This document shows positions 22,219-37,797 of a stretch of 40,480 bases of DNA, piece by piece. The stretch lies in contig JAAVHX010000006.1 of NCBI GenBank assembly GCA_014799475.1, positions 1 through 40,480 on the forward strand, read 5' to 3'. This stretch comes from Clostridiales bacterium (GTDB taxonomy: Bacteria; Bacillota; Clostridia; Oscillospirales; Oscillospiraceae). Position numbers and translations under genes: made by a program. The stretch's first letter is position 1, and each line of letters opens with the position of its first letter. A model generated the notes under the pieces. It made no database searches and was not told where the DNA came from. It was given only the letters and a program-made list of their open reading frames with translations.

Positions 22219-22242
22219 CCGGAACGCCCCTGACAGTGCAAT

Positions 22243-22271
22243 GGCTTCCCCGCCCAACCGGCGGGGAAGCC
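22243..22271 (+). terminator. Hairpin between collagen gene 2 and the glycosyltransferase
   Basis: A perfect 12-bp stem (GGCTTCCCCGCC, 22243-22254, with 22260-22271) around a five-base loop. It lacks a U-tract, so it is more likely an attenuator or RNA-stability element tuning expression of the glycosyltransferase than a full stop. Confidence 0.5.
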
Positions 22272-22292
22272 AAACTTAAAAGGAGGATGCCT

Positions 22293-23372
22293 ATGATTAC
22301 GGTCAGCCTGTGCATGATCGTAAAAAATGAGGAGGACGTGCTGAGCCGCTGCCTGGAGAGTGTGGAGGATCTGGTGGATGAGATCATCATCGTTGACACC
22401 GGCTCCACCGACCACACCCGGGAGATCGCGGGGCGGTTCACCGACCGGGTATACGACTTCACCTGGATCAACGACTTCGCGGCCGCCCGGAACTACGCCT
22501 TTTCCCTGGCGGAGAAGGACTACTGTATGTGGCTGGACGCGGACGACGTGATCTTAGAGGCGGACCGGGCCGCGCTCCGGGTGTTAAAGGAGACGCTGGA
22601 GCCCGACGTCTGCGTGGTCATGGCCAAATACGACACGGGGTTCGATGAAAACGGGAACGTGACCTTTTCCTATTTCCGGGAGCGGCTCATCAAAAACCAC
22701 ACCGGGATGCGCTGGGAGGGCGCGGTGCACGAGGCCATCGCCCCGGTGGGCCGGGTGCTCTACAGCCAGTTCGCCGTCACCCACCGCAAGCTGCGCCCCT
22801 CCGACCCGGACAGGAACCTGCTGATCTACGAAACGCAGCTGGAGCAGGGCGTGAAGCTGGAACCCCGGCAGCAGTTTTATTACGGGCGGGAGCTGTATTA
22901 CCACCAGCGCTACGCCCAGGCCGTCCAGGTCCTTGAGGATTTTCTGGACGAGGGCCGGGGCTGGATGGAGAATAACATCGACGCCTGCTGCCACTGCGCC
23001 TACTGCTATGAGCGCATGGAGCAGCCGGAGCGGGCGCTGCAATCGCTGCTGCGCAGCTTTGCCTATGACCGGCCCAGGGCCGAGGTATGCTGCGAGCTGG
23101 GGCGCTGGTTTTTCCAGCGGGAGCAGATGTCCCTGGCCGCCTATTGGTACTCGCTGGCCCTGACCTGCCCCCGGGACGACCGCCGGGGCGGGTTTATCTC
23201 CCCCGACTGCTACGGTTACCTGCCCTGCATCCAGCTGTGCGTCTGCTACAGCCGCCTGGGCGATCTGGAGCGGGCGGAGCGGATGAACGAGCTGGCCGCC
23301 TCCTTCAAGCCGGACGCGGCCTCGGTCCTGCATAACCGGGCTTATTTCCAAAGCCTGGCGGCGGGGCGGTAA
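22293..23372 (+). CDS. Family 2 glycosyltransferase with C-terminal TPR-like region
   Basis: A 359-residue cytoplasmic GT2 enzyme. The GT-A fold shows TVSLCMIVKNEEDVLSRCLE, the nucleotide-sugar strand EIIIVDTGSTDHT, and the metal-binding DAD in YCMWLDADDVIL. From about residue 190 the sequence is made of helical TPR-like repeats (YGRELYYHQRYAQAVQVLED, then AYCYERMEQPERALQSLLRS). This GT2-TPR arrangement is known in bacterial glycosyltransferases that modify proteins. It follows the two collagen-like genes with 74 bases between, so glycosylation of their Thr-rich repeats is the natural inference. ATG 22293 lies six bases after AGGAGG; ATG 22287 is too close. Confidence 0.87.
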   Translation: MITVSLCMIVKNEEDVLSRCLESVEDLVDEIIIVDTGSTDHTREIAGRFTDRVYDFTWINDFAAARNYAFSLAEKDYCMWLDADDVILEADRAALRVLKETLEPDVCVVMAKYDTGFDENGNVTFSYFRERLIKNHTGMRWEGAVHEAIAPVGRVLYSQFAVTHRKLRPSDPDRNLLIYETQLEQGVKLEPRQQFYYGRELYYHQRYAQAVQVLEDFLDEGRGWMENNIDACCHCAYCYERMEQPERALQSLLRSFAYDRPRAEVCCELGRWFFQREQMSLAAYWYSLALTCPRDDRRGGFISPDCYGYLPCIQLCVCYSRLGDLERAERMNELAASFKPDAASVLHNRAYFQSLAAGR

Positions 23373-24988: not shown

Positions 24989-26122
24989 TTATGTCCAGTC
25001 CACCGGCATCCCGTTGACCTCCATCCCCTTGCTGGCCGGTATGAGGAGATACTTTTTGCCGTCGATGATCCGCAGCTCCACCAGATGGCTGTGCTCCGGG
25101 TCGAGGGTGATGGCGGCGTCCTGGGTCTTGACCTCGAAGCGCTTGCTGTCGATGAGGTTGGCGGGGCTGAGCGCCGCCCCCTCGCCGAACCGCTCCGCGC
25201 ACTTTTCACAAAAGGCGGTGACTTGAGCCTCCTCCGCCCCGCAGTCCTGGAGGATGTCGGCCACATCGTTGGCGGTGAGGGTCAGCGGCTCCGGGTCCCG
25301 GCTCTCCCTGTGCTGCCCGATCTGCTGGGTCAGCTGTTCGTGGACGGCCTGAACCACCTCCAGGCCGCAATTTCCTGCCAGCGCCTCGGTGAGGGCGGAC
25401 TGGAACGCCTCCCGCTGCTCACCGGCGGACATGAGCGGCTCGGTGTGAAAGACGGCGTCCAGGAACTCCTGATGCAGCTCGTCCGGCTTGCGGGTGTAGG
25501 CCAGGGCGTTGTAGATATTGGCCGCCCGGTCGTCAAAGGCGGGGAACAGGAAGCCCAGCTCCGGCGGGGCCACGAGCTGGCTGGGGAGGGAGTTGTGGAA
25601 CCCGTTTTCATCGGGACAGTAGCGCAGCTCCAGCTTGCCGTCCTTCACCGGGCACACGCAGCAGACGATGTAGGAAAACACCTGGTCGGAGGCGTCCGCC
25701 TGGAGCTCGTCGTCCTTGCCCCGGAAGGGGACGTCGTAAGTATCGTGGGCCAGCAGGATCAGGTAATTGCTGTCCCCCATGTCCAGGGAGTCGATGACCT
25801 TTTGATAGAACTGCCGCCGCACCTCGCCGTCCTTCAGCCCGGAGTTCCGCAGGGCCATGAGCAGCCGGTGTTCCTCGCTGTCCGCCACCTGCTGGGTGGA
25901 AAATTCGACGTCCAGCAGATTTCTCCCCAGGGCGCCGGAGAGCGCTTTTTTCAAGAAACCCAGGTATTGCTCGGCTTCCTCCTGGGGCATCATCCCCAGG
26001 GATTCGTCCAGGGAGGAGATGATCTCTTTCCGGCAGCTGACATAGCAGCCATAGACGCGGCTGATGGCGTTTTTATTCAGGCGAAAGCGGCGGCGCAGCT
26101 CGCTGATCTCTTTTTGGTTCAT
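24989..26122 (-). CDS. DUF4317 family protein
   Basis: A 377-residue cytoplasmic protein of the DUF4317 family, common in Clostridia and uncharacterised. Recognisable parts are NQKEISELRRRFRLNKNAIS with GCYVSC at the start, and YLILLAHDTYDVPFRGKD in the middle with SYIVCCVCPVK. The end (LRIIDGKKYLLIPASKGM, then VNGMPVDW) is beta-rich. No catalytic motif was seen. ATG 26122 follows GAGGTTACC and gives the family start; ATG 26146 is less likely. It lies 79 bases downstream of the VWA gene on the same strand, so it may belong to the same transcript, though the gap is larger than others in that operon. Confidence 0.88.
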   Translation of the reverse strand: MNQKEISELRRRFRLNKNAISRVYGCYVSCRKEIISSLDESLGMMPQEEAEQYLGFLKKALSGALGRNLLDVEFSTQQVADSEEHRLLMALRNSGLKDGEVRRQFYQKVIDSLDMGDSNYLILLAHDTYDVPFRGKDDELQADASDQVFSYIVCCVCPVKDGKLELRYCPDENGFHNSLPSQLVAPPELGFLFPAFDDRAANIYNALAYTRKPDELHQEFLDAVFHTEPLMSAGEQREAFQSALTEALAGNCGLEVVQAVHEQLTQQIGQHRESRDPEPLTLTANDVADILQDCGAEEAQVTAFCEKCAERFGEGAALSPANLIDSKRFEVKTQDAAITLDPEHSHLVELRIIDGKKYLLIPASKGMEVNGMPVDWT

Positions 26123-26201
26123 GGTAACCTCACATTCGCAAATCAATTTCCCGCGTATTTTGGGAGACGAGACGCCCGGAGCGGCGGGATCACGCTGGGC
26201 G

Positions 26202-27368
26202 CTATCCCTTTTGGCTGGCCAGCCCCTCCAGGCTCTGCCCCTTCAGCGTCCGCTCCAGCAGCTCGGGCAGGCGTTCCGGGGCGCAGGCAAAGCAGGGGAT
26301 CCCCATGGCGGCGATCCGCCGGGCGGTCTCGGGGTCATAGAAGGGCTTGCCGCCGTCGGCAATGGCCAGCAGCACCACCACCGTCACCCCGGAGGCTTTC
26401 AGCTCCTCCACCCGGCGCAGCAGGGCGGCGCGGTTGCCCCCCTCGTACAGGTCGGAGATGAGGAAGAACAGCGTCTTGGCCGGGGACTCCACCAGCTCCT
26501 GGCAGTAGGCGATGGATTTGGCGATGTCGGTGCCGCCCCCCATCTGGAAGCCGAACAGCAGATCCACCGGGTCGGCGCACAGGGGGGTCAGATCCATGAT
26601 CTGGGTGTCGAAGGCCACCACGCTGGTCTTGACGGCGGACATGGACGCCAGCACGCAGGACAGCACCGAGGAATAGATGATGGACTGCCCCATGGAGCCG
26701 CTCTGGTCGATGTCCAGGATGATGTGCCAGCGGTTGATCTTGCTGGAGCGGTCGAAGAAATACACCCGCTCAGGGATGACCGCTTTCAACTCAGGGTTAT
26801 AATTTTGCAGGTTCCGCCGGATGGTATAGGGGAAGTCGATGGCGGATGCCGACGGCAGGGGGGAGTGGGCCCGGCGGTTCAGCGCCGCCGTCACCGCCCG
26901 GCGCACGTCGTTCTCCAGCATCTTGTTGATCTCTTCCACGATTTTGCGGATGAACTTCCGGGCCGATTCCTTGGACTTTTTGGGGATCTGGTCCTTCAGC
27001 ATCAGCAGGGTGGAGGCCAGGTTCAGATCGGGCTCCAGCCCCTCCAGCAGCTCCGGCTCCAGCAGAAGCTGCTTCAGCCCCTTGCGCTCGATGGCGTCGT
27101 TCTGCACCACCGCCACGATCTCCGGGTCAAACAGGGAGCGCAGGTCGCCCAGCCACTTGGAGATGACGGGGGAGGAGGGGCCGCGCCCTCCGGTGGGGCC
27201 GCTCCCGCCACTGAAGCCCTCCCCCGGCCCACCGTAGATGGCGGACAGGGCGCCGTCCATCAGCAGCTCCTCCTGGGACAGCGCGCCGCCCCCCATGCCG
27301 GTGAAGGACTGCTCCGTCTCGGAGCCCAGGATCAGCCGCCAGCGGGATAGTTGTTCTGTTTGTGCCAT
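26202..27368 (-). CDS. VWA-domain protein of a MoxR-VWA-SWIM system (YehP-like)
   Basis: A 388-residue protein with an N-terminal helical half and a C-terminal von Willebrand A domain. The complete MIDAS metal site is present: ILDIDQSGSMGQS, GGGTDIAKSI and LISDLYEGG. VWA proteins of this type pair with MoxR AAA+ ATPases as substrate or metal-ion-dependent adaptors. Size and partners match E. coli YehP (VWA, next to the MoxR-type YehL and the SWIM protein YehQ), itself uncharacterised. It begins 12 bases after the DUF5682 gene. The substrate is unknown. Confidence 0.88.
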   Translation of the reverse strand: MAQTEQLSRWRLILGSETEQSFTGMGGGALSQEELLMDGALSAIYGGPGEGFSGGSGPTGGRGPSSPVISKWLGDLRSLFDPEIVAVVQNDAIERKGLKQLLLEPELLEGLEPDLNLASTLLMLKDQIPKKSKESARKFIRKIVEEINKMLENDVRRAVTAALNRRAHSPLPSASAIDFPYTIRRNLQNYNPELKAVIPERVYFFDRSSKINRWHIILDIDQSGSMGQSIIYSSVLSCVLASMSAVKTSVVAFDTQIMDLTPLCADPVDLLFGFQMGGGTDIAKSIAYCQELVESPAKTLFFLISDLYEGGNRAALLRRVEELKASGVTVVVLLAIADGGKPFYDPETARRIAAMGIPCFACAPERLPELLERTLKGQSLEGLASQKG

Positions 27369-27380
27369 AGCGTCCTCCCC

Positions 27381-29687
27381 CTAAATGTCGTCAAAGTCGA
27401 ACTCGTCCAGGCTGTCCAGCACCGTCTGTTCCGTTTCGGTGATGTCGTTCATGAGGACCTCCGCCGTCTGCTGGGGGCTGACGCCCCAGATCTCGCCCAA
27501 ATTCTCTGCGATGTCGTTCTTTTCGCTGGGAGAGAAGTCGGCGAAGGCCCGCCGCAGGAACACCAGCGCCCGGCGGAAGGTCTCGTCGTCCAGGCCGCTG
27601 AGGTAGTCGTCCAGCTGCCGCCATAGGCTCAACCGGGCAATGAGGGCATAGCGGTTTTTGCCCGCCAGCCCCTCAAACCACCCCGCGCCCAGATCGGCGG
27701 GCACGCCGGGGGACAGCCGCCGGGCCACCTCACGGGAGAGAAGGGCCTCGTCCGCCTTTCCCCGCTCCAGCAGGATGGCCATGGCGAAGCCGGAGCAGCG
27801 GGTGTTCAAATCGTCCCGGTCGGAGATACCGGTAAGCAGATCCAGCCAGCGCGCCTCCTCCAAAAAGTCGTGATTGAGCTGGAGGGCGTTGAGCTGATCC
27901 ATGGCGCGGGTCACCTCGGGGGCGGCCTTGGCGTCGCACACGCAGGCGTCCGTCAGCGTCAGGCAGGAGCGCAGATAGAGCTGCTTGATGAGCGGGATAA
28001 CGGGCGCGGGGTCGAACCGCCGCAGATCGCCGTACCGTACCACCAGGGATAGCCGGGAAGCCGTCTCGGCCACCTCCGAAATGGCGGCGGAGTCCACGCT
28101 CAGCCCCTGCAAGACGGACAGGGCGTGGGCCGCGGCGGCGGGCATCCCGCACAAAAATGCGTCCTGGAAAATGGCGGCGGCTTCCGCGATGGAGCCGCTG
28201 TTGTCCGCCCGCTCTTTGAGGGCAAAGGCGGCGGCGCCCTCGATGGTCTCCCCCATGAGGGCGGACTCTACGATCTCGATCTCCGCCTCGGGTGTCCAGC
28301 GCAGCTCCCAGTACTCCCCCCAGTTGACCCCGTCCTGCCGGGAGGGGAGGAGGTTGGCGAAGTGCACCCCCAGCACCCGCAGGCGGTGGAGGAAGAAGGA
28401 GCGCCGCAAATCGCCCAGCGCGGCCTGTTCCGACTTCACGTTCAGCTTTTCCCGCAGATCCAGGTCAAGGCGCTGCAATTCAGCGGTGCGGAATTTCTCC
28501 AGCCGCAGCTCCTTGAGCTGCCGGTAAAAGTCCTCCTGCACCGACGTGCGGGCCACCCCCTCTGGGAGGAAGCCGATCTTCTTGCCGATCTCCGTGTCCG
28601 CCGCGGCCAGGGCCAGCTCGGAAAAGCTGCCGTGGCCCATGGTGGTAACGCTGGCGTCCCGCAGGTCGGACAGGGTGGGGTATTTGCTCCCCCGCATGGC
28701 GGCCAGCGTGTCCGCCAGCCGCACCGCCTCAATGACCTCGGCGGAGGAGGTGAGGTTGCCCGCCTTGCGATGGGCGGCGGCAAGACGGGTCAAATAGAGG
28801 TACGCCGTTTCCCCCGGGCCGCCCCTGTTGAGGGCGTCCCACAGCAGCTCGAAATAGGCCGGGGCCTTGTTGCCCGCGCCGTAGCCCGAACGGGAGGACA
28901 GGCGGTAGTAGGAGTAAGGCATCAGCGTGGCGCAGCAGTCGGCCCGGGGCAGCGCCTTTTCCTCCTCGTCGGTCATGGGCTGGTTTTCCTCCAGCCCCGC
29001 CACATGGAACGAGCCGCAGACGCAGAAAATCTTTTCCTCCGGAATGCCGCTGTCAACAGCCTGCTGCATGACCCGTTTCATGTGCGCTTCGCGTACGATG
29101 GTTTCCGCCATATGCCGCTTATCGTCCACAGAAGCCGTGCGCAGCTGCCGCCCGAAGGTGTTGTTGGCCTGATGGAAGTCCGGCCCGCCCTCGATCTGCT
29201 CGAAGGTGCGCTCCCAGAAAGTGTCGTGATCTTCGTCGGTGAGGGTCTCCAGACGACGGTAGATGCTTTCCATTGTCTGGGCAGGCTCCTCGTGGTCGTC
29301 TGGACCGTCATTGACGGCTTCGCCGTCAACGACCGGTCCGGCAGTGGCTTCGCCACTGCCCGGCCTCATCCCCAAAAACACCGACGAGGGCAGATCCATG
29401 AACCGGCACTCCACCTTGTGCTCGTTTGCCCACAAAATGGCCTGGGCCTCCGGGGAATAGATAGCAAAGGGCCACAAAATCGTCCGCACCGGCGCTTCCT
29501 TGGTGTAGGCCATGATGGCGGCGGGGAACTGGGTGTCCGGGTGGCACAGCCACTTCATCTGGTCGTTGAGGTCGCTGGGGCCCTCCACCAGCACCAGTTC
29601 CGGCTGGGCCGCGTCCAGCGCCCGCCGCAGATGGTACGCCGCCGCCGGGGACAGGTGGCGCACGCCAAACAATATGGGAGTACCCAT
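27381..29687 (-). CDS. DUF5682 family protein with TIKI/TraB-like GxxH motifs
   Basis: A 768-residue cytoplasmic protein of the DUF5682 type. The first 240 residues resemble the TIKI/TraB/ChaN fold: ILFGVRHLSP (GxxH at residues 8-11), LVLVEGPSD (Glu35), and later FCVCGSFHVAGL (second GxxH near residue 223). In TIKI proteins these residues bind metal for proteolysis, so a metallohydrolase activity can be inferred but not shown. The rest is helical. ATG 29687 shares one base with the ATPase stop. Residues around 109-130 (GSGEATAGPVVDGEAVN) are encoded by two perfect palindromes and look like an in-frame insertion. It may correspond to E. coli YehM by size and position. Confidence 0.8.
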   Translation of the reverse strand: MGTPILFGVRHLSPAAAYHLRRALDAAQPELVLVEGPSDLNDQMKWLCHPDTQFPAAIMAYTKEAPVRTILWPFAIYSPEAQAILWANEHKVECRFMDLPSSVFLGMRPGSGEATAGPVVDGEAVNDGPDDHEEPAQTMESIYRRLETLTDEDHDTFWERTFEQIEGGPDFHQANNTFGRQLRTASVDDKRHMAETIVREAHMKRVMQQAVDSGIPEEKIFCVCGSFHVAGLEENQPMTDEEEKALPRADCCATLMPYSYYRLSSRSGYGAGNKAPAYFELLWDALNRGGPGETAYLYLTRLAAAHRKAGNLTSSAEVIEAVRLADTLAAMRGSKYPTLSDLRDASVTTMGHGSFSELALAAADTEIGKKIGFLPEGVARTSVQEDFYRQLKELRLEKFRTAELQRLDLDLREKLNVKSEQAALGDLRRSFFLHRLRVLGVHFANLLPSRQDGVNWGEYWELRWTPEAEIEIVESALMGETIEGAAAFALKERADNSGSIAEAAAIFQDAFLCGMPAAAAHALSVLQGLSVDSAAISEVAETASRLSLVVRYGDLRRFDPAPVIPLIKQLYLRSCLTLTDACVCDAKAAPEVTRAMDQLNALQLNHDFLEEARWLDLLTGISDRDDLNTRCSGFAMAILLERGKADEALLSREVARRLSPGVPADLGAGWFEGLAGKNRYALIARLSLWRQLDDYLSGLDDETFRRALVFLRRAFADFSPSEKNDIAENLGEIWGVSPQQTAEVLMNDITETEQTVLDSLDEFDFDDI
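29311..29360. repeat. Pair of palindromic mini-elements inside the DUF5682 gene
   Basis: Two perfect hairpins with TTC loops: TTGACGGC-TTC-GCCGTCAA (29311-29329) and GGCAGTGGC-TTC-GCCACTGCC (29340-29360). On the coding strand each gives the core Gly-Glu-Ala, so they are related elements lying in frame in a low-complexity segment. Confidence 0.75.
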
Positions 29688-30778
29688 CACCCGTTCAGCT
29701 CCCGGCAGGCACGGTAGAGCGGCAGCCATTCGTGGCCCCGCTTCTTCATCACGTTCTCCAGATACTCCTTCCAGGTGACCTTGTCGTTCTCCTCGTCCTT
29801 CACCACGGCCCCTTGGAGGGCAGCGGCCAGATCCCCGTCGGATACCCGGCCGTCCCCAAAGCTCCCGGCCAGCGCCATGGAGTTGGCCAGCAGGGAAATG
29901 GCCTCGGCGGTGGACAGCACGCCGGAGGTGGTTTTCAGCTTCTGCTTGCCGTCCAGGGTGGCGCCGCCCCGCAGCTCCCGGAAGATGGTGACCACCTTCT
30001 CCACCGTGTCCTCGTCGGGCTGGCGGGCGTTCAAATCAAGACCGTTGGACAGCTGGGCCACCCGGGTGCGAACGATGTCCAGTTCCGTCTCCATATCCGA
30101 CGGGGTGGGCAGCACCACGATGTTGAACCGCCGCTTCAACGCCGCCGACATATCGTTGACGCCCTTGTCCCGGGTGTTGGCGGTGGCGATGACGGAGAAG
30201 CCCTTGGCGGCGGGCACCTCCAGGCCCAGCTCGGGGACGCTGAGCCGCTTTTCCGACAGGATGGAGATGAGCGCGTCCTGCACCTCGCTGGCGCAGCGGG
30301 AGATCTCCTCCACACGGGCGATGGAGCCCGTCTCCATGGCTCGGTAGACGGGGCTTTTCACCATAGCCTCGGGGCAGGGGCCCTTGGCAATGAGCATGGC
30401 GTAGTTCCAGGAGTAGCGGATATGCTCCTCGGTGGTGCCCGCCGTGCCCTGCACCACCTTGGTGGAGTCGCCGTTGACGGCGGCGGTCAGGTGCTCGCTG
30501 AGCCAGGATTTCGCCGTGCCCGGCTCGCCGATGAGCAGCAGGGCACGGTCGGTGACCAGGGTAGCGATGGCGATCTCCACCAAACGGCGATTGCCCATGT
30601 ACTTGGGGGTGATGTCCACGCCCTTCACCTTCACGTTCCCGGTGAGGTAGGTCAGTACCGACCGGGGGGACATCCGCCACCCGGTGGGGATGGTGTCGGT
30701 CTCCGCGGAGATCAGGGCGTCCAGTTCCTTCTGATAAAGCTCCTCCGCCGGGAGGCGCTGTACGTTTTTGTCTGCCAT
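29687..30778 (-). CDS. MoxR-type AAA+ ATPase (YehL-like)
   Basis: A 363-residue AAA+ ATPase. Walker A is GEPGTAKS at residues 84-91; the Walker B position reads IARVEEISRC, with Glu where Asp-Glu is usual; sensor 1 is ATANTRD; the arginine-finger region is ALKRRFNIVVLPTP. MoxR ATPases act as chaperones that mature or remodel partner complexes with VWA proteins, and the length nearly equals E. coli YehL. ATG 30778 follows GGAGGAATGTGAC. It is the third gene of the MoxR-VWA-SWIM operon, 15 bases after the helical-repeat gene. Confidence 0.9.
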   Translation of the reverse strand: MADKNVQRLPAEELYQKELDALISAETDTIPTGWRMSPRSVLTYLTGNVKVKGVDITPKYMGNRRLVEIAIATLVTDRALLLIGEPGTAKSWLSEHLTAAVNGDSTKVVQGTAGTTEEHIRYSWNYAMLIAKGPCPEAMVKSPVYRAMETGSIARVEEISRCASEVQDALISILSEKRLSVPELGLEVPAAKGFSVIATANTRDKGVNDMSAALKRRFNIVVLPTPSDMETELDIVRTRVAQLSNGLDLNARQPDEDTVEKVVTIFRELRGGATLDGKQKLKTTSGVLSTAEAISLLANSMALAGSFGDGRVSDGDLAAALQGAVVKDEENDKVTWKEYLENVMKKRGHEWLPLYRACRELNG

Positions 30779-30793
30779 GTCACATTCCTCCGT

Positions 30794-32707
30794 TTACCTT
30801 AGTGCGATCCAGTCGTCCCAGTCCGGGAACGGTTTGCCCGCCCGGAGCTGCTCAATGGTCCAGGGGATGGTTTTCTGGGCCGTCGGCAGGGCCTCCTTGT
30901 TGATGCCGCCGGAGGACAGAACTTCCTCCAAAAGCATCGCCGTCTCCTCCGGCGGCAGGACTTGGGCTGCGTCGTTCATCAGCCGCCATAATACGCCAAG
31001 GCGGTTGCTCTTGGAGTTCCTTGCCATCGCCTTTCCCAGCACGCCCCTGGGGCTGCCGCCGAACCGGAACAGATAATGGCTGTAGCTGTATGGCTGCCCG
31101 TTCTCCGCCATCCGCTCCCGGAGGTAGGGGACGAGCAGCGCCCGTGTCTCCTCGTCCGACGGGTCGGACAGCCGGATCAAGGTCAAATCGTACTCCTCAA
31201 TGGGCTCCCAGTAGGCATAGGCTGAGCCGCTCCCATTCTTTCCCGTGGTCTTCCACACGGCATGGGTGAGCCGCTTGATCCACCGTTTGTCCAGCGGCTG
31301 GGCGGTGGGCCAGACGCCGTTGATGAGACATGCCCCGGTGTCCTCCTTCCACGCCAGCCGCCCCAGCCCTTCGAGGACGGCGTTGTGGAGCGCCTGCTTC
31401 TGGGCGCCGCCCAGAAGGGGTTTGACGACGGGTACATAGGGGGAGAACTGGTCGTACACCTCGCTGGCCGAGCGGGTCAGCAGCGACGCTACGACTGCGT
31501 GGGGCAGCCAGCGGGCCTCGTCCTTGTGCTTCCCCCACAGCTCCAGGCACAGCTCGCACAGCGGCCCCGGCCCGGCGGTACACAGGCTGTCCAGCAGAAG
31601 CTCGGCGAGCTGCGCCCCCAGCCGCAGGGGCTGGCCGGTGTGGTTTTGCAGCTTGCCGATGGCCTCCGTTTCGGCGTCCGCCCAGCGCCAGAAGTCCAGC
31701 ATGGAGGGGGAGGACTTTCCCTTGGCGGAGGCCAGCCAGGCCGAGACATCCGCATGGGTCTCCTTGCCGATCTGGCCGCCCTGCTCCACCGCAGCCTCCA
31801 CCCGGTCCCACAGACCCCGGGCCACCAGGTCGGAGGCCCAGTCCGCCCGGGTGGGGCGCAGGAAGGCGACGGCCTGACTGTTTTTGCCCAGCTCCCTTTC
31901 CCAGAACGCGCTGACCTCGTCCCCGTCCTGCTTGGCCAGGGCCTCCAGCGCCGTCTCCCGGTTCTTGCCCCGCTCGGATTTCGCCAAATCAAGCAGGAGA
32001 CTGGTATTTTCCCCGTCCCCGCCCAGGGCGGTGATGACGGCGGAGCGCACATCCTTTTTCGCCTCGGGCAGAATTTCCCGCAGCCAAGGAGTGGCGGCTT
32101 TGCCGTCCAGCGCGGCGATGACCTCCACCCGGCGGGCCATCTCCTTGTTGCCGGCGGGGTCAAAGCCCTGCTTCAGCGCGGGGATCACAGACGGCCCCAG
32201 TTCTTTCAGCAGGGTGGCGCACAGCTCCCCCATCTCGCCGTAGCCGTCCCCCAGTCCAACGATGACCGCGGGCAGCACCCGGTAGTCCTCAAAAAACTCG
32301 GGGTGGTTCTCCCAGGCGGATTTGACGATCTCCATCCGCCCGCCGCCGGTGGTGGTCAGCGCGGTGAGCAGGGGGCTGATCTGCCCGTAAGAAATCTGGT
32401 GATATACCCCGCCGCCTACGGGCAGGGGCTCCAACTCCCCCTCAAACCCGGCCCCGGCCTGGGTGTACGCCACCGCGTCCACCAGTGCCAGCACGTCCAG
32501 CAGCAGGCCGGAGCGCTGCTCCGGGGGCGCGGCCAGCAGCTTCGTGAGCCCCGCGTCGATCTTTCCAAATACCGGGCTGGCCGCGGCCAGGGGCTTCAGG
32601 GCCTCCGCCGCCCGCTGGAGGCGGAAGTCCTCCCCCAGCAGGGACACGCCCGCGATGGCGGCGTATTCCAACCGCTCCTTCACGTCATAAAGAGGCTGTA
32701 AATTCAT
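30794..32707 (-). CDS. Large helical-repeat protein of the MoxR-VWA-SWIM operon
   Basis: A 637-residue, almost entirely alpha-helical soluble protein. The pattern of 30-40-residue helical pairs between about 130 and 330 (LCATLLKELGPSVIPALKQG, EVIAALDGKAATPWLREILP, ITALGGDGENTSLLLDLAKS) is HEAT-like, suggesting a scaffold. The C-terminal third is different and Trp-rich, ending PFPDWDDWIALR. I cannot assign a family with certainty; DUF5691-type proteins occupy this place in related operons. ATG 32707 follows GAGGAGGTG. It lies 12 bases after the SWIM gene and 15 before the ATPase, so it is a core member of the unit. Confidence 0.75.
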   Translation of the reverse strand: MNLQPLYDVKERLEYAAIAGVSLLGEDFRLQRAAEALKPLAAASPVFGKIDAGLTKLLAAPPEQRSGLLLDVLALVDAVAYTQAGAGFEGELEPLPVGGGVYHQISYGQISPLLTALTTTGGGRMEIVKSAWENHPEFFEDYRVLPAVIVGLGDGYGEMGELCATLLKELGPSVIPALKQGFDPAGNKEMARRVEVIAALDGKAATPWLREILPEAKKDVRSAVITALGGDGENTSLLLDLAKSERGKNRETALEALAKQDGDEVSAFWERELGKNSQAVAFLRPTRADWASDLVARGLWDRVEAAVEQGGQIGKETHADVSAWLASAKGKSSPSMLDFWRWADAETEAIGKLQNHTGQPLRLGAQLAELLLDSLCTAGPGPLCELCLELWGKHKDEARWLPHAVVASLLTRSASEVYDQFSPYVPVVKPLLGGAQKQALHNAVLEGLGRLAWKEDTGACLINGVWPTAQPLDKRWIKRLTHAVWKTTGKNGSGSAYAYWEPIEEYDLTLIRLSDPSDEETRALLVPYLRERMAENGQPYSYSHYLFRFGGSPRGVLGKAMARNSKSNRLGVLWRLMNDAAQVLPPEETAMLLEEVLSSGGINKEALPTAQKTIPWTIEQLRAGKPFPDWDDWIALR

Positions 32708-32719
32708 GCGAGCACCTCC

Positions 32720-34201
32720 TCAATATTGCAGCCGGATGATCTCGTCCGGCGTCACTACGCTATAGGGGTGGAGACACAGGGTCTTGTCCCGCCCGTCGTA
32801 AAACATCAGGCCAAACAGGGCGCTGCCCGCCGGGATGGCGCGGGGCAGCATCCCCAGCCGCGCGGTGCAGGCGTGATCCGCGCCGTCCTCGGGGCGGTTT
32901 CGGAGGAGGATGCGGCCTCCTTGGGCGTCCTCCAGGACATAGGCAGCGCTGGCGCTGCCGGATCCAATCCCCGTTTCCCCCACTGTGCCGACCTGCCCGA
33001 TAGGCACCAGTACGGCCAGGAATTTCGGGGCCAGGGTGTTCTTGATCTTCCCCTTCACCAGCTTGGTGGCGGCCGCCAGATCGGGCTGGGCCAGGGCGGG
33101 GAGGGCGGCCTGCTCCTCTGCCGTCAGGGGCCGGGTGGACGCGCTGTCCCAGCGCACCCGGCGATCTCCCTCGCCGGGGTAGATGTACAGGGCGGGGACC
33201 TCCAGCACTCCAAACCGGCTGTCGTCCCCCTTCACGTATTTCAGCGCCTTCACCGGGCGCAGGTTCAGCGTCTGCCAGATGTCCCCGCTGTCAATATCCA
33301 GCCACCAGCCCCGCTCCACGTACTCCTTTTTCGCCTCGTCAAAGGACACGTCGAAGGAGAGCTGCACCAGCTTTACGTTCTCCTTGACCGAGCCGATGGC
33401 CTTCAGGTCCTCCAGCTTCCACACGCCGCCCAGCGCCTCGAACAGGGCGGAATCCTCGGCGGAATAGTCGCCCGCCTCCAGCTTGCCCTCCAAAAATACG
33501 CGGCCCTTTTTGATGGTGGAGCGCAGCGCCACCAGAAGCCGCAGTGCCTCGGCGTATGCCGCGTCCGCCTGGGCGGGATCCTTCTGCACGGTGCGAACCG
33601 TCAGGGCGATGCGGGTAAACGCCGTCTGGGGCCCGGTGAGGTAGCAGCTCCCCAGATCCTTGGCCAGCTTGTCGAAGGTCTGGGCGGAGCTGCCCGCCAG
33701 GGTGCCAAGGCCGGAGGTAAGCAGCTCGTCCACCATCTTCTCCGCCATGTCCAGGCCCTCTAACTGTTTCGCCAGCTTTTTCTTCTGGGCGGCGGTGTTG
33801 GGCTTTTTGGGCTTGGCGGGGCCTCCGCCCTCCTCAGCCGCCGCCTCCTTCTTCGCCGTCCGGGCGGCCTGCTTGGCCCGCTTGTCGGCGATGTCCTGGG
33901 GTATCTCCGCCACCTCAAAGGGGGCGTTCCCCAAAATCTCAAACATCAGCCCCAGGGCGTGCTTGCAGGGGAACTGCCTGCTGGGGCAGGAGCAACGGCA
34001 GGTGGGCGCGTCGGCGTTGGTGAAGTCGATGGACACGCGGTATGGGTTCTTGCCGCTGCCCGCGCACTCGCACCAGTAGAGGGTGCCGTCCTCTGTCCTG
34101 CGGTGGGCGGAGAAGCTGCCCTTTTTGGACAGCTTCCTGCCGTTTTCCGCCGCCGCGGGGTTGGGCGCCTGGAGAAGAATGGCTTGTTCCGTCAATTCCA
34201 C
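32720..34201 (-). CDS. SWIM zinc-finger protein of the MoxR-VWA-SWIM operon (YehQ-like)
   Basis: A 493-residue protein. The SWIM motif CxC-x6-CxH occurs at residues 70-81 (CSCPSRQFPCKH), preceded by a strand RVSIDFTNADAPTC; SWIM domains bind zinc and are thought to bind DNA or protein. A Lys/Ala-rich linker (residues 108-145) leads to a helical region (LDMAEKMVDELLTSGLGTLA) and a beta-rich C-terminal half. GTG 34201 is the start, seven to eight bases after AAGGAGG. It starts 13 bases after the oxidoreductase gene; the ribosome site lies next to that stop, hinting at coupling. E. coli YehQ is the nearest named relative by context. Confidence 0.87.
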   Translation of the reverse strand: MELTEQAILLQAPNPAAAENGRKLSKKGSFSAHRRTEDGTLYWCECAGSGKNPYRVSIDFTNADAPTCRCSCPSRQFPCKHALGLMFEILGNAPFEVAEIPQDIADKRAKQAARTAKKEAAAEEGGGPAKPKKPNTAAQKKKLAKQLEGLDMAEKMVDELLTSGLGTLAGSSAQTFDKLAKDLGSCYLTGPQTAFTRIALTVRTVQKDPAQADAAYAEALRLLVALRSTIKKGRVFLEGKLEAGDYSAEDSALFEALGGVWKLEDLKAIGSVKENVKLVQLSFDVSFDEAKKEYVERGWWLDIDSGDIWQTLNLRPVKALKYVKGDDSRFGVLEVPALYIYPGEGDRRVRWDSASTRPLTAEEQAALPALAQPDLAAATKLVKGKIKNTLAPKFLAVLVPIGQVGTVGETGIGSGSASAAYVLEDAQGGRILLRNRPEDGADHACTARLGMLPRAIPAGSALFGLMFYDGRDKTLCLHPYSVVTPDEIIRLQY

Positions 34202-34214
34202 GTCAAAGACCTCC

Positions 34215-35489
34215 TTAAAAATCAGCCAGTGTGATGGTTTTGCCCCCCGCCAGACGGGAGGCCTCGGCGGCCAGCGCCATGACGTGGCTCTCCACAGAGG
34301 CGTCCACGTCGGTGAGCCCCTGGGAGCCGCCGTCCGCGATAAGCTTGCAGAAGCTGGATATGAGGCCGAAGTCTCCGCCGCCGTGTCCGGAGTACTGGCC
34401 GCCCTCCTCCCGCAGGTCGATGATCCGCTCCGGCCGGCCGAACCGGCGGAGATGGAGGGTATTTTCCGCCATGTCCCCCTCGATCTCCCCCAAGGTGCCC
34501 GTCACCTTGATGGTGCGGTGGCAGGACTGGGTGAAGGCGGTCATGGTAAAGGTGGCATGGATGTGGTTGGCAAACTCCAGGTTCACCGTCTGATGATCCA
34601 CCACGTTGTTGTCACAGTGGAACACACAGCGCCCGTAAGGCCCCGTGCGCAGGGCTTCCCGAAGCTTTTCCTCCGTGGGGTCGCTGACCAGTACGCCGCA
34701 GGGCCACCCCTTTCCGCCGCCGTGTACGCCGGTGCGGGGGTCGGTGATGTAAATTTTCTCGGCGTCGTAGGGACAGTCCTCCTTGCATTTGCAGCCGTCC
34801 AGGCAGCGCAGAGCCGCCCCCTCTGGGGCGTTTTCCGCCGTGAAATAGTCCAGCGCGCCGAAACTCTGCACCTTCAGGCAGGGCTCCCCCGCCAGCCAGC
34901 GCAAAATGTCCATGTCGTGGCAGCTCTTTTGCAGGATCATGGGGCTGGTCTCAAGGTCATTTCGCCAGTTGCCCCGGACAAAGCTGTGGGCCTGGTGCCA
35001 GTAGGCCACGTGCTCGATGGCGTCGATGGTCTCCGGCTTGCCGATCTCCCCCTGGCGCAGGAGCTCCTCAAGCACAGAGTAGAACCTGGTGTAGCGCAGC
35101 ACGTGGCACACCACCACCGTTTTCCCCGTCTCGTGGGCCTTCTTCTGAAGGGCGCGGCACTCCTCCAAATTGGGGGAGATGGGCTTTTCCAACAGCACGT
35201 GGTAACCTTTATCCAGGGCGGCCAGGGCATCGGCGACGTGCTGCCGGTCCTGGGTGGCCACGATCATCACGTCGGCCAGCTTTGGCTGGGCCAGCAGCTC
35301 CGCGTCGGAGGCGAAGCACCGCTCGGGCGGCACACCGTACCGCTCCCGCAGCATGGCCAGGCGCTCGGGCCGGGGATCCGCCCCGGCGACCACCTTCATC
35401 TCGTCCGGGTGCCGCTCCTGGTAGGGGGCATAGGCCTCCAGGCCCCGGGCCCCGCAGCCGCAGATGGCAAATGTGACTGGCTGTGACAT
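34215..35489 (-). CDS. Gfo/Idh/MocA-family oxidoreductase
   Basis: A 424-residue NAD(P)-dependent dehydrogenase probably acting on a sugar or cyclitol. The Rossmann fold starts FAICGCGARGLEAYAPYQ; the EKP motif is HVLLEKPISPN; the C-terminal alpha/beta domain contains SFVRGNWRND, and KSCHDMDILRWLAG supplies the conserved Asp-x-x-x-x-x-x-x-x region with His. A cysteine cluster (RCLDGCKCKEDCPYDAEKIY) in the second domain suggests a bound metal, as in one subgroup of the family. ATG 35489 follows AAAGGAGAGG. It is the promoter-proximal gene before the SWIM-HEAT-MoxR-DUF5682-VWA set, 13 bases away. A functional link is not obvious; it may only share the transcript. Confidence 0.9.
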   Translation of the reverse strand: MSQPVTFAICGCGARGLEAYAPYQERHPDEMKVVAGADPRPERLAMLRERYGVPPERCFASDAELLAQPKLADVMIVATQDRQHVADALAALDKGYHVLLEKPISPNLEECRALQKKAHETGKTVVVCHVLRYTRFYSVLEELLRQGEIGKPETIDAIEHVAYWHQAHSFVRGNWRNDLETSPMILQKSCHDMDILRWLAGEPCLKVQSFGALDYFTAENAPEGAALRCLDGCKCKEDCPYDAEKIYITDPRTGVHGGGKGWPCGVLVSDPTEEKLREALRTGPYGRCVFHCDNNVVDHQTVNLEFANHIHATFTMTAFTQSCHRTIKVTGTLGEIEGDMAENTLHLRRFGRPERIIDLREEGGQYSGHGGGDFGLISSFCKLIADGGSQGLTDVDASVESHVMALAAEASRLAGGKTITLADF

Positions 35490-35551
35490 ACGCGTTCCTC
35501 TCCTTTGCATCCTATGGGACCGCTGGGCCCCGCGTTTTCTCGCATGGATAT

Positions 35552-35683: not shown

Positions 35684-36481
35684 TCAGCCTGTGGGGCGCT
35701 CTCCCAGCGCCTTGGCAGTTTGACCCGGCAGGCCCGTCTCCATCTCCTCGTCGGTGAGAAACTCGGTCATCACGTGCCGATACCGTTTCGGCATATGGGT
35801 GGATTGGCATTTGGGGTTGATCCGTCCCTCAATGGCGATGGTCTGAAAGTATTTCCGCCACATGGCCCGGAACGCCCGCTCCTCTGTGCCGGCGGGGCCC
35901 ATGCGGAAGTCCTCGGCGGGGAGGATCTTCCACCGCCCCCGGTCGGAGAGGAAGATCTCGCGGTGGGTGCGGTCATAGAGGGCCAGCCGCTCCCCGGAGT
36001 ACCGGGCGGCAAAGTGGGGCGCCAGCAGGGGCAGCACCCGGTTTTTGGGTTCGATCTCCCCAGCCAGGATGCCGTCCAGGTCGGAAAAGCGGACGAAGCC
36101 CTTCAAATGATCCCACTCCGTCCACATTTTGGTCAGCGCCAGATTGACCCTGGCCACCACCGGGTCGCTGAGGTCCTGCCGCACCCGGTCTCCCTCCCGA
36201 AGCCCCCGGCGGATCAGCTTCAGCAGGGCCAGCTCCTTCTGGGGCAGGCAGGTCAAAAACCCCCGGGCGATGAGCGTTTGAAAGGCGGGGGAGACCCGAC
36301 GGGCCAGCGCGGCATAGAGCCGTTTGGCGCGCCCCTCGTCTGTGGCCATCTCAAGCGCCTCCCAGAGGCTGGCCTCATCGTCGAAATGCAGGAACTCCGC
36401 AGGCGACCTTTTGTGCTCCAAAGCGTCCCAGACGCAGGTCAAAAAGCCGGCGAAGGTGCCGTCATACCGGTAGGCCGTCAT
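35684..36481 (-). CDS. TIGR03915-type putative DNA repair protein (DUF4130)
   Basis: A 265-residue protein of the family named as a putative DNA metabolism protein that always accompanies a radical SAM partner. The N-terminal TAYRYDGTFAGFLTCVWDAL and the DUF4130 region (SDPVVARVNLALTKMWTEWD, FVRFSDLDGILAGEIEP, LPLLAPHFAARY) are typical; the C-terminal RAMWRKYFQTIAIEGR with NPKCQSTHMPKRY is a conserved end. ATG 36481 is two bases beyond the partner's stop; the longer frame from 36526 overlaps that gene. Its biochemical role is not established; joint action with the next gene on DNA damage is the accepted guess. Confidence 0.9.
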   Translation of the reverse strand: MTAYRYDGTFAGFLTCVWDALEHKRSPAEFLHFDDEASLWEALEMATDEGRAKRLYAALARRVSPAFQTLIARGFLTCLPQKELALLKLIRRGLREGDRVRQDLSDPVVARVNLALTKMWTEWDHLKGFVRFSDLDGILAGEIEPKNRVLPLLAPHFAARYSGERLALYDRTHREIFLSDRGRWKILPAEDFRMGPAGTEERAFRAMWRKYFQTIAIEGRINPKCQSTHMPKRYRHVMTEFLTDEEMETGLPGQTAKALGERPTG

Positions 36482-36482
36482 C

Positions 36483-37751
36483 TCAGCCCACCTCCTGGCC
36501 GAACAGGGACAGCTGCTGCCAGCCATCCCCGCCCAGTTCCATCCGCTCCAGCCCCGTGAGGCGGCGGTAGACGCTGTCGGGGCCGAACCGCAGCCCGGGC
36601 AGCATCCGGCCCGAGCAGGTGATGAAATACTGGGCCCGCTTCATCACGATGCCCAGCCGCTTCAGCCCCTCGAAGGAGAGGGGGCCGTACCGCCGGGCGG
36701 CGATGATCTTTTGGGCGCCCCGGACCCCGATGCCGGGCACCCGCAGGATGGCCTCGTAGTCCGCCCGGTTCACCTCCACCGGGAAAAACTCCGGGTGGCG
36801 GAGGGCCCAGTCGCTCTTGGGATCCAGGGCCTCGTCAAAGTTGGGGTGGTCGTCGTCCAGGATTTCCCCAGCGGTGAAGCCATAGAACCGCAGCAGCCAG
36901 TCGGCCTGGTAGAGCCGGTGCTCCCGCAGAAGGGGCGGCTTGAAGCCAACGGGGGCGGGCAGATTTTTGTGGTCGGACACCGGCATATAGGCGGAGTAGA
37001 ATACCCGCTTCAAATGGTACTTCTGGTAAAGCCCCTCTGTCAGGGACAAAATGTGCCGGTCACTCTCCGGGGTGGCCCCCACGATCATCTGGGTAGACTG
37101 CCCCGCCGGGGCGAACCGAGGGGCGTGGCGGTAGAGCTTCAGCTCCGCCTTGGACTGTGCCGCCCCGTCCCGGATCTGTGCCATGGGTTTGAAAATGGCG
37201 GTTTTGCTCTTGTCGGGAGCCAGCAGCCGGAGGGAGCCCTCCGAGGGCAGCTCGATGTTGACGCTCAGCCGGTCCGCCAGCAGGCCCAGCTCATAGGTGA
37301 GGCCGGGGTCCGCCCCGGGAATGGCCTTGGCGTGGATGTATCCGTTGAAATGGTATTCGGTGCGCAGCAGGCGCAGGGTCTCGATGATCCGCTCTGTGGT
37401 GTAATCGGGGCTTTTCAGCACCGCCGAGGACAGGAACAGTCCCTCGATATAATTGCGCCGGTAAAACTGGATGGTCAGCTCCGCCAGCTCCCGGGGGGTG
37501 AAGGCCGTCCGGCGCACGTCATTGGAGCGTCGGTTGACGCAGTAGGCGCAGTCGTAGCAACAGTGGTTGGTGTAGAGCACCTTCAGCAGGGACACGCACC
37601 GCCCGTCGGCGGAAAAGGTGTGGCAGCAGCCGGAGCTGGCGGCGGTGCCGATGGTGCCCGGCCTGGCGCCCCGGGTCACCCCGCTGGAGGTGCAGGCGGC
37701 GTCATACTTGGCGGCGTCGGCCAGGATGGTCAGCTTGTCCATGACATCCAC
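36483..37751 (-). CDS. TIGR03916-type putative DNA modification/repair radical SAM protein
   Basis: A 422-residue radical SAM enzyme. The iron-sulphur motif CxxxCxxC is in NHCCYDCAYCVNRR; the start DKLTILADAAKYDAACTSSG is the family signature. A C-terminal helix-hairpin-helix (AILRVPGIGVRGAQKIIAAR) suggests DNA binding, with RAQYFITCSGR near the end. GTG 37751 is preferred, six to seven bases after AAGGGGAG; ATG 37742 is three codons later. It is translated first, one base before the DUF4130-type gene. The chemistry is unknown. The promoter is overlapped by a perfect palindrome, which implies tight control. Confidence 0.92.
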   Translation of the reverse strand: MDVMDKLTILADAAKYDAACTSSGVTRGARPGTIGTAASSGCCHTFSADGRCVSLLKVLYTNHCCYDCAYCVNRRSNDVRRTAFTPRELAELTIQFYRRNYIEGLFLSSAVLKSPDYTTERIIETLRLLRTEYHFNGYIHAKAIPGADPGLTYELGLLADRLSVNIELPSEGSLRLLAPDKSKTAIFKPMAQIRDGAAQSKAELKLYRHAPRFAPAGQSTQMIVGATPESDRHILSLTEGLYQKYHLKRVFYSAYMPVSDHKNLPAPVGFKPPLLREHRLYQADWLLRFYGFTAGEILDDDHPNFDEALDPKSDWALRHPEFFPVEVNRADYEAILRVPGIGVRGAQKIIAARRYGPLSFEGLKRLGIVMKRAQYFITCSGRMLPGLRFGPDSVYRRLTGLERMELGGDGWQQLSLFGQEVG

Positions 37752-37797
37752 AGGATTCTCCCCTTTCCGCTCAGTGGGCGGGCCACGCAAAATCAAA

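Follow-up and report, generated by a model that had tools for sequence, protein, structure and literature searches.

The window analysed here, a stretch of 40,480 nucleotides from a gut bacterium, carries at positions 26202–34201 five open frames, all on the minus strand, which encode in order a SWIM zinc-finger protein, a HEAT-repeat protein, a MoxR-type AAA+ ATPase, a DUF5682 protein, and a CoxE-type VWA protein. We read this set, with a probability of slightly under one half, as a MoxR–VWA remodelling machine in which an interchangeable recognition subunit would work alongside a TIKI-type hydrolase, and which is perhaps aimed at foreign proteins. The five products probably form one YehL-type machine in the cytoplasm, and its target, its chemistry, and a possible role in defence are what we infer. 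New to this analysis are the profile match suggesting that DUF5682 belongs with TIKI, the hypervariability and partial block exchange of the HEAT protein, and the hypervariable cassettes of the E. coli DUF4132 proteins.

The SWIM protein (32720–34201, minus strand, as for all features below; 493 aa, GTG start; PF04434, E 3e-8) has its motif, CRCSCPSRQFPCKH, at residues 54–87 (about 34042–33941), and is followed by the HEAT protein, the proposed recognition subunit (30794–32707; 637 aa; HEAT_2 PF13646, E 7e-8). The ATPase, of the YehL subfamily (29687–30778; 363 aa; AAA_5 PF07728, E 4e-38), shows the Walker A sequence GEPGTAKS together with the motifs IATANT and LKRRF, and the VWA protein, a YehP homologue (26202–27368; 388 aa; VWA_CoxE PF05762, E 7e-46), has the MIDAS sequence DQSGS as well as GGGT and ISDLY. 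Between them lies the DUF5682 gene, a yehM homologue (27381–29687; likely 768 aa; PF18934, E 3e-153), whose listed start at 29729 falls within moxR; the likelier start is the ATG at 29687, which has a TGATG overlap with the MoxR stop and lines up with the beginning of YehM from E. coli. Counted from this ATG, the intergenic spacing is 12, 15, −1, and 12 bases, in agreement with an earlier note on this DNA, which had described the genes as packed with gaps of 15 bases or less, and the Pfam matches to AAA_5 and VWA_CoxE likewise bear out its MoxR–VWA assignment.

The five-gene arrangement is far from chance. Among 62 related loci the order is intact in 45, two of which (L080 and L084) have SWIM broken into two frames, and 15 of the 17 loci without the full set end at a contig boundary on the missing side; the sets of the other two (L063 and L082) are internally incomplete. 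The genes thus behave as the single conserved unit that had been proposed, and members scattered independently of one another were not seen in the loci examined. The same five window-type genes also occur in a Fusobacterium record and in a Bacillota genome (L096, L107), and the records of Rhizobium and Deinococcus have the order SWIM, DUF5691, AAA, DUF5682, VWA. Methylosinus has SWIM, DUF5691, AAA, and DUF5682 with the VWA spread over two frames, SWIM and DUF5691 are joined in a single protein in Hymenobacter, and one locus (L026) encodes a DUF5682–VWA fusion of 993 aa.

Two flanking genes were considered as members: a Gfo/Idh/MocA gene (34215–35510) adjoins the set in only 4 of the 62 loci (L028–L030, L052) and a DUF4317 gene (24989–26146) in only 3 (L028, L029, L052), and neither is therefore counted in the set. 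Gfo genes of 58–85% identity (L147–L165) were examined for their neighbours in a genus sample of 41 genomes, and within about 1500 bases of them SWIM was absent, as were the two DNA-repair genes; in one genome (G027) the set and Gfo lie on different contigs (C18 and C5), so that the position of the set varies within the genus. A phage origin was also rejected, the sole match in a phage collection being an unverified faecal scaffold.

Judged by pairwise and profile comparison, the set is the homologous counterpart of E. coli yehL-yehM-yehP-yehQ. E. coli K-12 is described as having two MoxR ATPases (PMC3893208, in the part cited), and the window MoxR is nearer to YehL (39% over 364 columns, E 2e-79) than to RavA (E 0.02). 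DUF5682 matches YehM at 25% (E 4e-33), and the VWA protein matches YehP at 34% over nearly its full length (E 1e-77), as against E 0.07 for ViaA; a Pfam run on YehL, YehM, and YehP gives MoxR, DUF5682, and VWA_CoxE in the same order as in the window. The SWIM protein has no significant BLASTP match to YehQ, and its profile matches YehQ-type proteins at 94.6% over 55 columns outside the SWIM motif and the SWIM proteins of the Rhizobium/Deinococcus-type sets at 99.9% over 386 columns. The yeh cluster, which the earlier note had named as the nearest set, therefore holds as a relative through YehL, YehM, and YehP, and its suggested comparison with YehQ is borne out at the level of profiles only; the note's view that these genes lack an established function also stands, no function for the yeh genes or for the exact set having been found in the literature searched.

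Within yehI-yehK-yehL-yehM-yehP-yehQ, the MoxR, DUF5682, and VWA homologues keep the identical order, with SWIM and YehQ related by profile. A large variable protein is encoded upstream of the MoxR gene in both clusters and occurs in tandem in both, but it is a WGR–DUF4132 protein in E. coli and a HEAT protein, without detectable homology to it, in the window; YehQ follows the VWA gene, whereas SWIM comes first. A DUF4132 (YehI-type) partner is absent from the window, and a HEAT protein stands in its place, so that our claim is one of a homologous core and not of an identical set. Common descent of the HEAT protein with DUF5691 or DUF4132 was looked for and not detected: the profile probability is 0.8% with four annotated DUF5691 proteins (0.6% in a set including the unlabelled frame L111:18410–19864) and 5% with the YehI family (6.6% for the HEAT N-part). 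DUF5691, represented by the four annotated proteins, matches the YehI profile at 1.7%. The annotated flanks of yeh are ordinary and alike in the strains seen, with metG on one side and, where shown, yehR and yehS on the other.

The HEAT protein is helical nearly throughout in its AlphaFold2 model (mean pLDDT 91.0), and a fold search with this model leads to HEAT solenoids in general, karyopherins among them (best E 4e-4; TM-scores of roughly 0.1–0.3), and to no specific relative. Over residues 1–225 (32033–32707), the better conserved and proposed docking half, mean pairwise identity starts at 0.78 and drops to about 0.5, and distances follow those of the other genes (rho 0.50–0.69). Residues 260–637 (30797–31930), the hypervariable and proposed target-binding half, are nearly uncoupled from the other genes (rho 0.16–0.22), with a mean identity of 0.25–0.32 from residue 281 onward. 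These comparisons dropped frames shorter than 440 (SWIM), 540 (HEAT), 340 (MoxR), 700 (DUF5682), and 360 (VWA) residues; L071, L076–L078, L080, L081, and L084 were excluded from the identity profile, from the distance tracking together with the pair and nearest-locus counts given below, and from the dN/dS correlations. The distance tracking and those counts also excluded loci with multiple HEAT genes.

Tandem HEAT genes are present in 8 of 48 loci, with a maximum of four copies, and among 25 locus pairs with an identity of 85% or more in each of the four remaining proteins, 15 have HEAT C-parts less than 50% identical. Between the window and L052 the HEAT proteins are 39% identical and the others 90–98%, with a dS of 0.86 for HEAT versus 0.19–0.28 for the others. 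Exchange in the hypervariable part takes the form of blocks in some pairs: the two tandem copies of L083 are 92–100% identical over codons 1–225 and 33–76% thereafter, and the genes of L056 and L072 have a common block at codons 301–350 (0.93–0.99) flanked by diverged stretches. The locus nearest by DUF5682 is also nearest by the HEAT C-part in 9 of 33 cases, and by SWIM in 19 and by VWA in 20 of 33, so that the constant genes themselves agree only partly; this incongruence is judged from distances and not from trees. That the helical-repeat part of the machine is duplicated and partly exchanged in pieces, with the rest fairly constant, suggests that this part recognises changing targets. The "HEAT-like scaffold" of the earlier note was too narrow as to the role, since a variable, duplicated, and block-exchanged protein is more than a plain scaffold.

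A comparable picture emerges from E. coli. Among 10 strains, which were chosen from yehI matches and so have yehI by choice, 7 have an intact second copy of DUF4132, whose alleles fall to as little as 74% identity, the median for YehL being 99.2%. The DUF4132 protein has two hypervariable cassettes amid constant parts, which reassort independently between strains; each cassette type tested is present in part of 5426 E. coli genomes, the constant 3′ part in 5274, and the yeh cluster in almost every E. coli. This polymorphism makes for a direct hypothesis, in that natural alleles differ mainly in two defined segments.

The N-domain of DUF5682 (28875–29684) is probably a hydrolase of the TIKI superfamily (TraB/PrgY/GumN). 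Compared with 11 TraB sequences (of 13; L128, a wrongly picked frame, and L136, with an internal stop, were left out), it gives HHalign probabilities of 90–94% (E 1e-6 to 1e-7, 196–197 columns), as against at most 0.64% in 100 shuffles and less than 1% for decoys. It matches ChaN at 37% and Ere at 0.4%, with two sequences each, and in these small sets the known TIKI families match each other poorly as well (TraB–ChaN 30.5%, TraB–Ere 0.17%, ChaN–Ere 5.4%). A GxxH motif (H25), E49, R213, and a second GxxH (H242), numbered from the start at 29729, are invariant in 29 DUF5682 proteins (9 of 56 close sequences and 20 distant ones), in the same collinear order as the GxxH, Glu, Arg, and GxxH of TIKI, TraB/PrgY/GumN, ChaN, and Ere. 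According to the cited part of PMC6254334, members of the superfamily have in common a His, a Glu, and a basic residue, and RRSP and an Ere relative have a 2His/2Glu catalytic set. DUF5682 differs in that the second Glu is absent next to the first His; the listed TraB motifs GTAH, GSVH, and GSIH are also without it, and the second Glu may therefore not define the TraB branch. It also differs in having about 500 additional, mostly helical residues and in belonging to a five-gene set. The AlphaFold2 model of the whole protein (mean pLDDT 84.5) has no Foldseek match at E ≤0.001, its 50 VIA-align entries align mainly over residues 444–773, and no TIKI-type chain is among the best 50 Foldseek or 50 VIA-align matches listed for it, an outcome that weighs neither for nor against the fold. 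For structure alignment A2, 55 of 60 sequences were used, and for A3, 37 of 56. The earlier note's suggestion of a hydrolase is thereby given a candidate superfamily, TIKI/TraB, and with it residues of interest, the hydrolase activity itself being a prediction. No paper under the DUF5682 family name was found in the literature searched.

These observations would fit a mechanism in which the N-terminal half of the HEAT protein docks onto the machine and its variable C-terminal half captures a target. The ring of MoxR, for which the VWA protein would provide the coupling, might then remodel the captured target or switch the complex on. DUF5682 would next cleave either this target or a different substrate, whose cleavage would act as a signal or do harm, and the SWIM protein may aid assembly or bind nucleic acid. 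New specificities could arise as the recognition gene duplicates in tandem and exchanges blocks, by analogy with the target-recognition domains of HsdS. The selection for many variants might most simply come from conflict with phages or other mobile elements, which is the least supported step.

The variability could also reflect a C-terminal HEAT half under weak constraint, with drift and chance recombination between tandem copies and no selection for new specificities. For close pairs, dN/dS stays under 1 without consistently exceeding that of the other genes, identity declines gradually in several HEAT pairs, and broken copies are frequent in E. coli, all of which this account would accommodate. 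We nevertheless regard it as improbable: 59 of the 62 HEAT frames in the 62 loci reach at least 540 aa, and one of the three short ones sits at a contig end; dN/dS is 0.12–0.35 in 11 close pairs within HEAT lineages (in a table of 15 pairs, 11 of one HEAT lineage and four with replaced HEAT), by which measure these lineages are under purifying selection; synonymous sites diverge too, an effect that relaxed protein constraint alone would lack; and the unrelated E. coli DUF4132 protein has a comparable architecture with two separate cassettes.

The pairing of MoxR with a CoxE-type VWA protein is one used in metal insertion and complex maturation (PMC13036017 and PMC3893208, in the parts cited), and the set might accordingly be a maturation chaperone of the NorQ–NorD, CoxD–CoxE, or RavA–ViaA kind, in which MoxR and VWA would let a metal or cofactor into a client by twisting or unfolding it, and HEAT, SWIM, and DUF5682 would be client adaptors. 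The naming of E. coli molR, a member of this gene family, for molybdate use points the same way (as cited in passages of PMC4245954 and PMC8533742). This explanation is unlikely but deserves to be taken seriously; if the client were invariant, it would not explain why one subunit is duplicated in tandem and exchanged in blocks, no recurring enzyme gene directly adjoins the set in four annotated plasmid records, and Deinococcus moeA and moeB are reported as not differentially expressed where DUF4132/WGR genes are induced (PMC8533742, same passages). The set might also be a system for quality control or toxin handling that is self-directed, its variable subunit tracking a polymorphic protein of the cell itself or of its neighbours and not an invader. 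This reading would suit the near-universal presence in E. coli, which fits housekeeping better than accessory defence, and the fact that mainly one subunit varies; the flanks of yeh, ordinary and alike in annotated strains, speak against it, and we hold it to be quite improbable.

Returning to the remodelling machine with an interchangeable recognition subunit, a wider version can be put forward only tentatively, as one we think somewhat doubtful: a widespread, hitherto unrecognised system of recognition and destruction, found in almost all E. coli and patchily in other phyla, in which a MoxR–VWA motor and a TIKI-type hydrolase would be aimed by a swappable large subunit with specificity segments that are shuffled between strains. 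Two or more recognition proteins that are unrelated to each other, HEAT and WGR–DUF4132 among them, would have come to serve in it, and the whole would parallel, at the level of proteins, those restriction enzymes whose specificity subunits can be exchanged. If true, the work of MoxR–VWA machines would extend past metal insertion and complex maturation, with one branch recognising changing targets.

Among known systems, NorQ–NorD, RavA–ViaA, and CoxD–CoxE combine a MoxR ATPase with a VWA partner as the window does, RavA and ViaA being only remotely similar to its MoxR and VWA proteins (E 0.02 and 0.07). The core components do not match the anti-phage models of PADLOC-DB 2.0.0, a single weak match at E ≤0.01 apart. 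The MoxR-vWA ternary conflict systems (VMAP, iSTAND, FtsH, beta-propeller; cited part of PMC7159879) have a MoxR–VWA core and a variable module, predicted to be helical and thought to sense invaders, and the window similarly has a highly variable non-enzymatic module in an otherwise well-kept set; its MoxR also matches Pfam bpMoxR at the cut-off (27 bits). They differ in that VWA_CoxE extends to residue 369 of the 388 in the window protein, leaving no space for a C-terminal effector domain, and in that the variable part has a gene of its own, which in some loci is repeated in tandem. In the Pfam library used here, the five proteins give no VMAP, iSTAND, FtsH, or beta-propeller match at E 1 other than that of MoxR to bpMoxR, and text searches of PMC7159879 turned up no mention of SWIM, TIKI, TraB, WGR, or YehL. 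In evolutionary terms, the set can also be compared with a system of another kind, although the protein family, the machine, and presumably the target differ and the likeness is not one of homology. In the HsdS subunit of type I restriction enzymes, variable and independently exchanged recognition segments lie between constant ones and serve a constant machine.

The five minus-strand genes that the earlier note had reported are present, running from 34201 down to 26202, and Pfam assigns their domains in the order that it had read, namely SWIM, HEAT (the helical-repeat protein), MoxR, DUF5682, and VWA. The ATPase motifs of MoxR, the MIDAS of VWA, and the SWIM motif are all found. The DUF5682 start as listed (29729) creates a 43-base overlap with MoxR; an ATG at 29687 leaves a one-base overlap with the MoxR stop (TGATG) and lines up with the start of E. 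coli YehM. The window lies within a single contig of a 2.08-Mb genome. Genes of the linked families TIGR03915 and TIGR03916 (putative DNA repair protein/radical SAM protein) lie upstream of the set on the same strand (35684–37796), and a BclA_C-domain collagen-like protein (21382–22218) adjoins a glycosyltransferase gene (22236–23372).

All five families occur in kept order at 45 of the 62 related loci; 15 loci run into a contig end on the side of the missing genes, L082 lacks part of the set internally, and L063 is an apparent remnant. The five window-type genes recur in one record from Fusobacterium and in a Bacillota genome (L096, L107). Plasmid-collection records from Rhizobium and Deinococcus hold SWIM, DUF5691, AAA, DUF5682, and VWA; in the Methylosinus record the first four are annotated and VWA is split over two frames, and in the Hymenobacter record a single protein combines SWIM and DUF5691. 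MoxR, DUF5682, VWA, YehQ-like, and YehI-like (DUF4132) proteins, in varying order, make up the sets of E. coli (whose yeh cluster presumably includes molR1), of two Bacillota genomes (L109, L110), and of two genomes from the Verrucomicrobia-phylum sample (L113, L114), and at L111 and L112 the YehI-like protein is paired with a Rhizobium-type SWIM protein. Comparison of these sets across lineages thus gives a core of MoxR-DUF5682-VWA with a SWIM protein and a further large protein that is HEAT, DUF5691, or DUF4132 according to lineage. Sequence comparison detected no mutual homology among these three, and a helical character is shown here, by a predicted model, for HEAT alone. Variants of layout include a single 993-residue frame that fuses DUF5682 to VWA, from another genome of the window's taxonomic order (L026:11447–14428), a hypothetical gene separating AAA and DUF5682 in Deinococcus (L092:9756–9992) and Hymenobacter (L093:9362–9973), and, in E. 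coli K-12 (L001:1475–5270), yehF (WGR) and the yehH pseudogene where other strains keep an intact second DUF4132 copy.

The distribution of the DUF5682 family is patchy. Named relatives of the window protein come chiefly from Oscillospiraceae and other Clostridia, with a few from Ruminococcus and Verrucomicrobia; the genomes that have DUF5682 number 11 of 36 in the genus (the window's own excluded), 1 of 23 in other families of the order, 4 of 248 others in a phylum sample, and, above the family cut-off, 4 of 193 others sampled from the phylum of the Verrucomicrobia relative, with one more below it. The E. coli yehLMPQ stretch reaches at least 80% coverage in 5162 of 5426 genomes. Three loci of the window's genus (L023, L024, L025) carry a second, divergent DUF5682 set (26% DUF5682 identity) with YehQ-like proteins, and with a YehI-like protein at L023 and L024, the L025 sequence ending before that position. 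MoxR, DUF5682, and VWA also stand on an unverified "Bacteriophage sp." faecal scaffold (L090; MT835988.1, 1–14207), which may be bacterial DNA.

Mean pairwise identity among 56 HEAT sequences starts at 0.78 at the N-terminus and is down to 0.25–0.32 from residue 281; it is at least 0.64 in each 40-residue block of SWIM, MoxR, and VWA, and in every block of DUF5682 but one (121–160, 0.32). At 33 single-HEAT loci, distances of the other four genes correlate among themselves with rho 0.51–0.90, and with those of the HEAT N-part (residues 1–225) and C-part (residues 260–637) with rho 0.50–0.69 and 0.16–0.22, respectively. In 25 pairs of loci the other four proteins all reach 85% identity or more, and in 15 of these pairs the C-parts are less than 50% identical, the extreme case being the window against the related locus L052 (HEAT 39%, the others 90–98%), with synonymous divergence of 0.86 for HEAT and 0.19–0.28 for the others, estimates that are saturated, and alignments uncertain, within the variable halves. 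Across eleven close same-lineage pairs, HEAT dN/dS is 0.12–0.35, in some no higher than for SWIM or DUF5682, which indicates purifying selection with no gene-wide sign of positive selection.

Where SWIM and MoxR are both present (48 loci), there is one HEAT copy in 40 cases, two in five, three in two, and four in one; no other family has a second full frame on the same strand at any of the 62 loci, SWIM being in two pieces at L080 and L084 and a MoxR-like frame lying on the opposite strand at L067. In along-gene profiles of eleven pairs (codons numbered in each pair's own alignment), the tandem copies of L083 are 92–100% identical over codons 1–225 and then 0.33–0.76, identity drops near codons 275–300 between L031 and L072, L056 and L072 are mosaic within the variable half, and the window–L052 pair and most remaining tandem pairs lose identity more gradually. 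Some pairs clearly show exchange of blocks; conversion between copies, transfer, or unequal loss of old copies may be the route, the identity profiles not telling them apart.

The DUF5682 N-domain probably belongs to the TIKI/TraB superfamily, judging from profile comparison. Against 11 TraB/PrgY/GumN sequences the alignment spans GxxH to GxxH (probability 90.4%, E 1.4e-6, 197 columns; on match columns 94.1%, 1.3e-7, 196), and as controls against TraB the DUF5682 C-part and each of four other families score below 1%. None of 100 column-shuffled profiles exceeds 0.64%, the value also given by the reversed family. Invariant residues in 29 members include R24, H25, E49, D112, R213, E214, M217, G239, and H242. 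Strands and helices alternate in this domain of the AlphaFold2 model, as expected for a TIKI-type fold. According to PMC6254334, the catalytic residues shared by TIKI enzymes are His and Glu, and a basic residue is conserved as well; the Glu beside the first His of the 2His/2Glu set described there has no match in DUF5682, and is also absent from the TraB motifs listed. Hydrolase activity is a prediction from sequence.

The variability of HEAT fits a recognition subunit. The large HEAT and E. coli DUF4132 proteins are unrelated, yet their machines are homologous and both show a like signature, which weak constraint alone poorly explains. As the best explanation of the whole, at a probability slightly under one half, we propose a YehL-type machine in which a fairly constant MoxR-VWA motor pair, a probable DUF5682 hydrolase that would cut, and a SWIM helper would serve a HEAT subunit capturing changing targets, one half of it better conserved and the other exchanged. 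The wider reading, a widespread recognition-and-destruction system whose interchangeable large subunit would comprise at least two unrelated recognition proteins, is rather doubtful. Both are made slightly less likely by three observations: pairs in which identity declines gradually, a Glu that has no match, and dN/dS in the ordinary range. As to defence, PADLOC returned a single weak match and ten further window proteins show ordinary surroundings; together with near-universality in E. coli and frequent broken copies, these surroundings give no argument for an accessory island.

The set is real and conserved and has a known though unexplained homologue; its new elements are an exchangeable, recognition-like subunit and a probable TIKI-type hydrolase. 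Its interest is high because natural allele sets are available for testing in a common laboratory species, E. coli. DUF5682 and DUF5691 are unnamed in the literature searched, which leaves out most subscription papers and bioRxiv preprints; for DUF4132, the sources report a transposon in the yeh region of ST131 and DdrO-dependent expression in Deinococcus (PMC8533742). A synthetic growth defect between molR1 and lepA is reported in PMC4245954. Text searches of PMC7159879 gave zero matches to SWIM, TIKI, TraB, WGR, or YehL, and the window-type set is not among the four MoxR-vWA types listed in that paper, which proposes variable, predicted helical modules of such systems as invader sensors. YehL is one of seven MoxR subfamilies in PMC3893208, and the set belongs with the MoxR-VWA machines.
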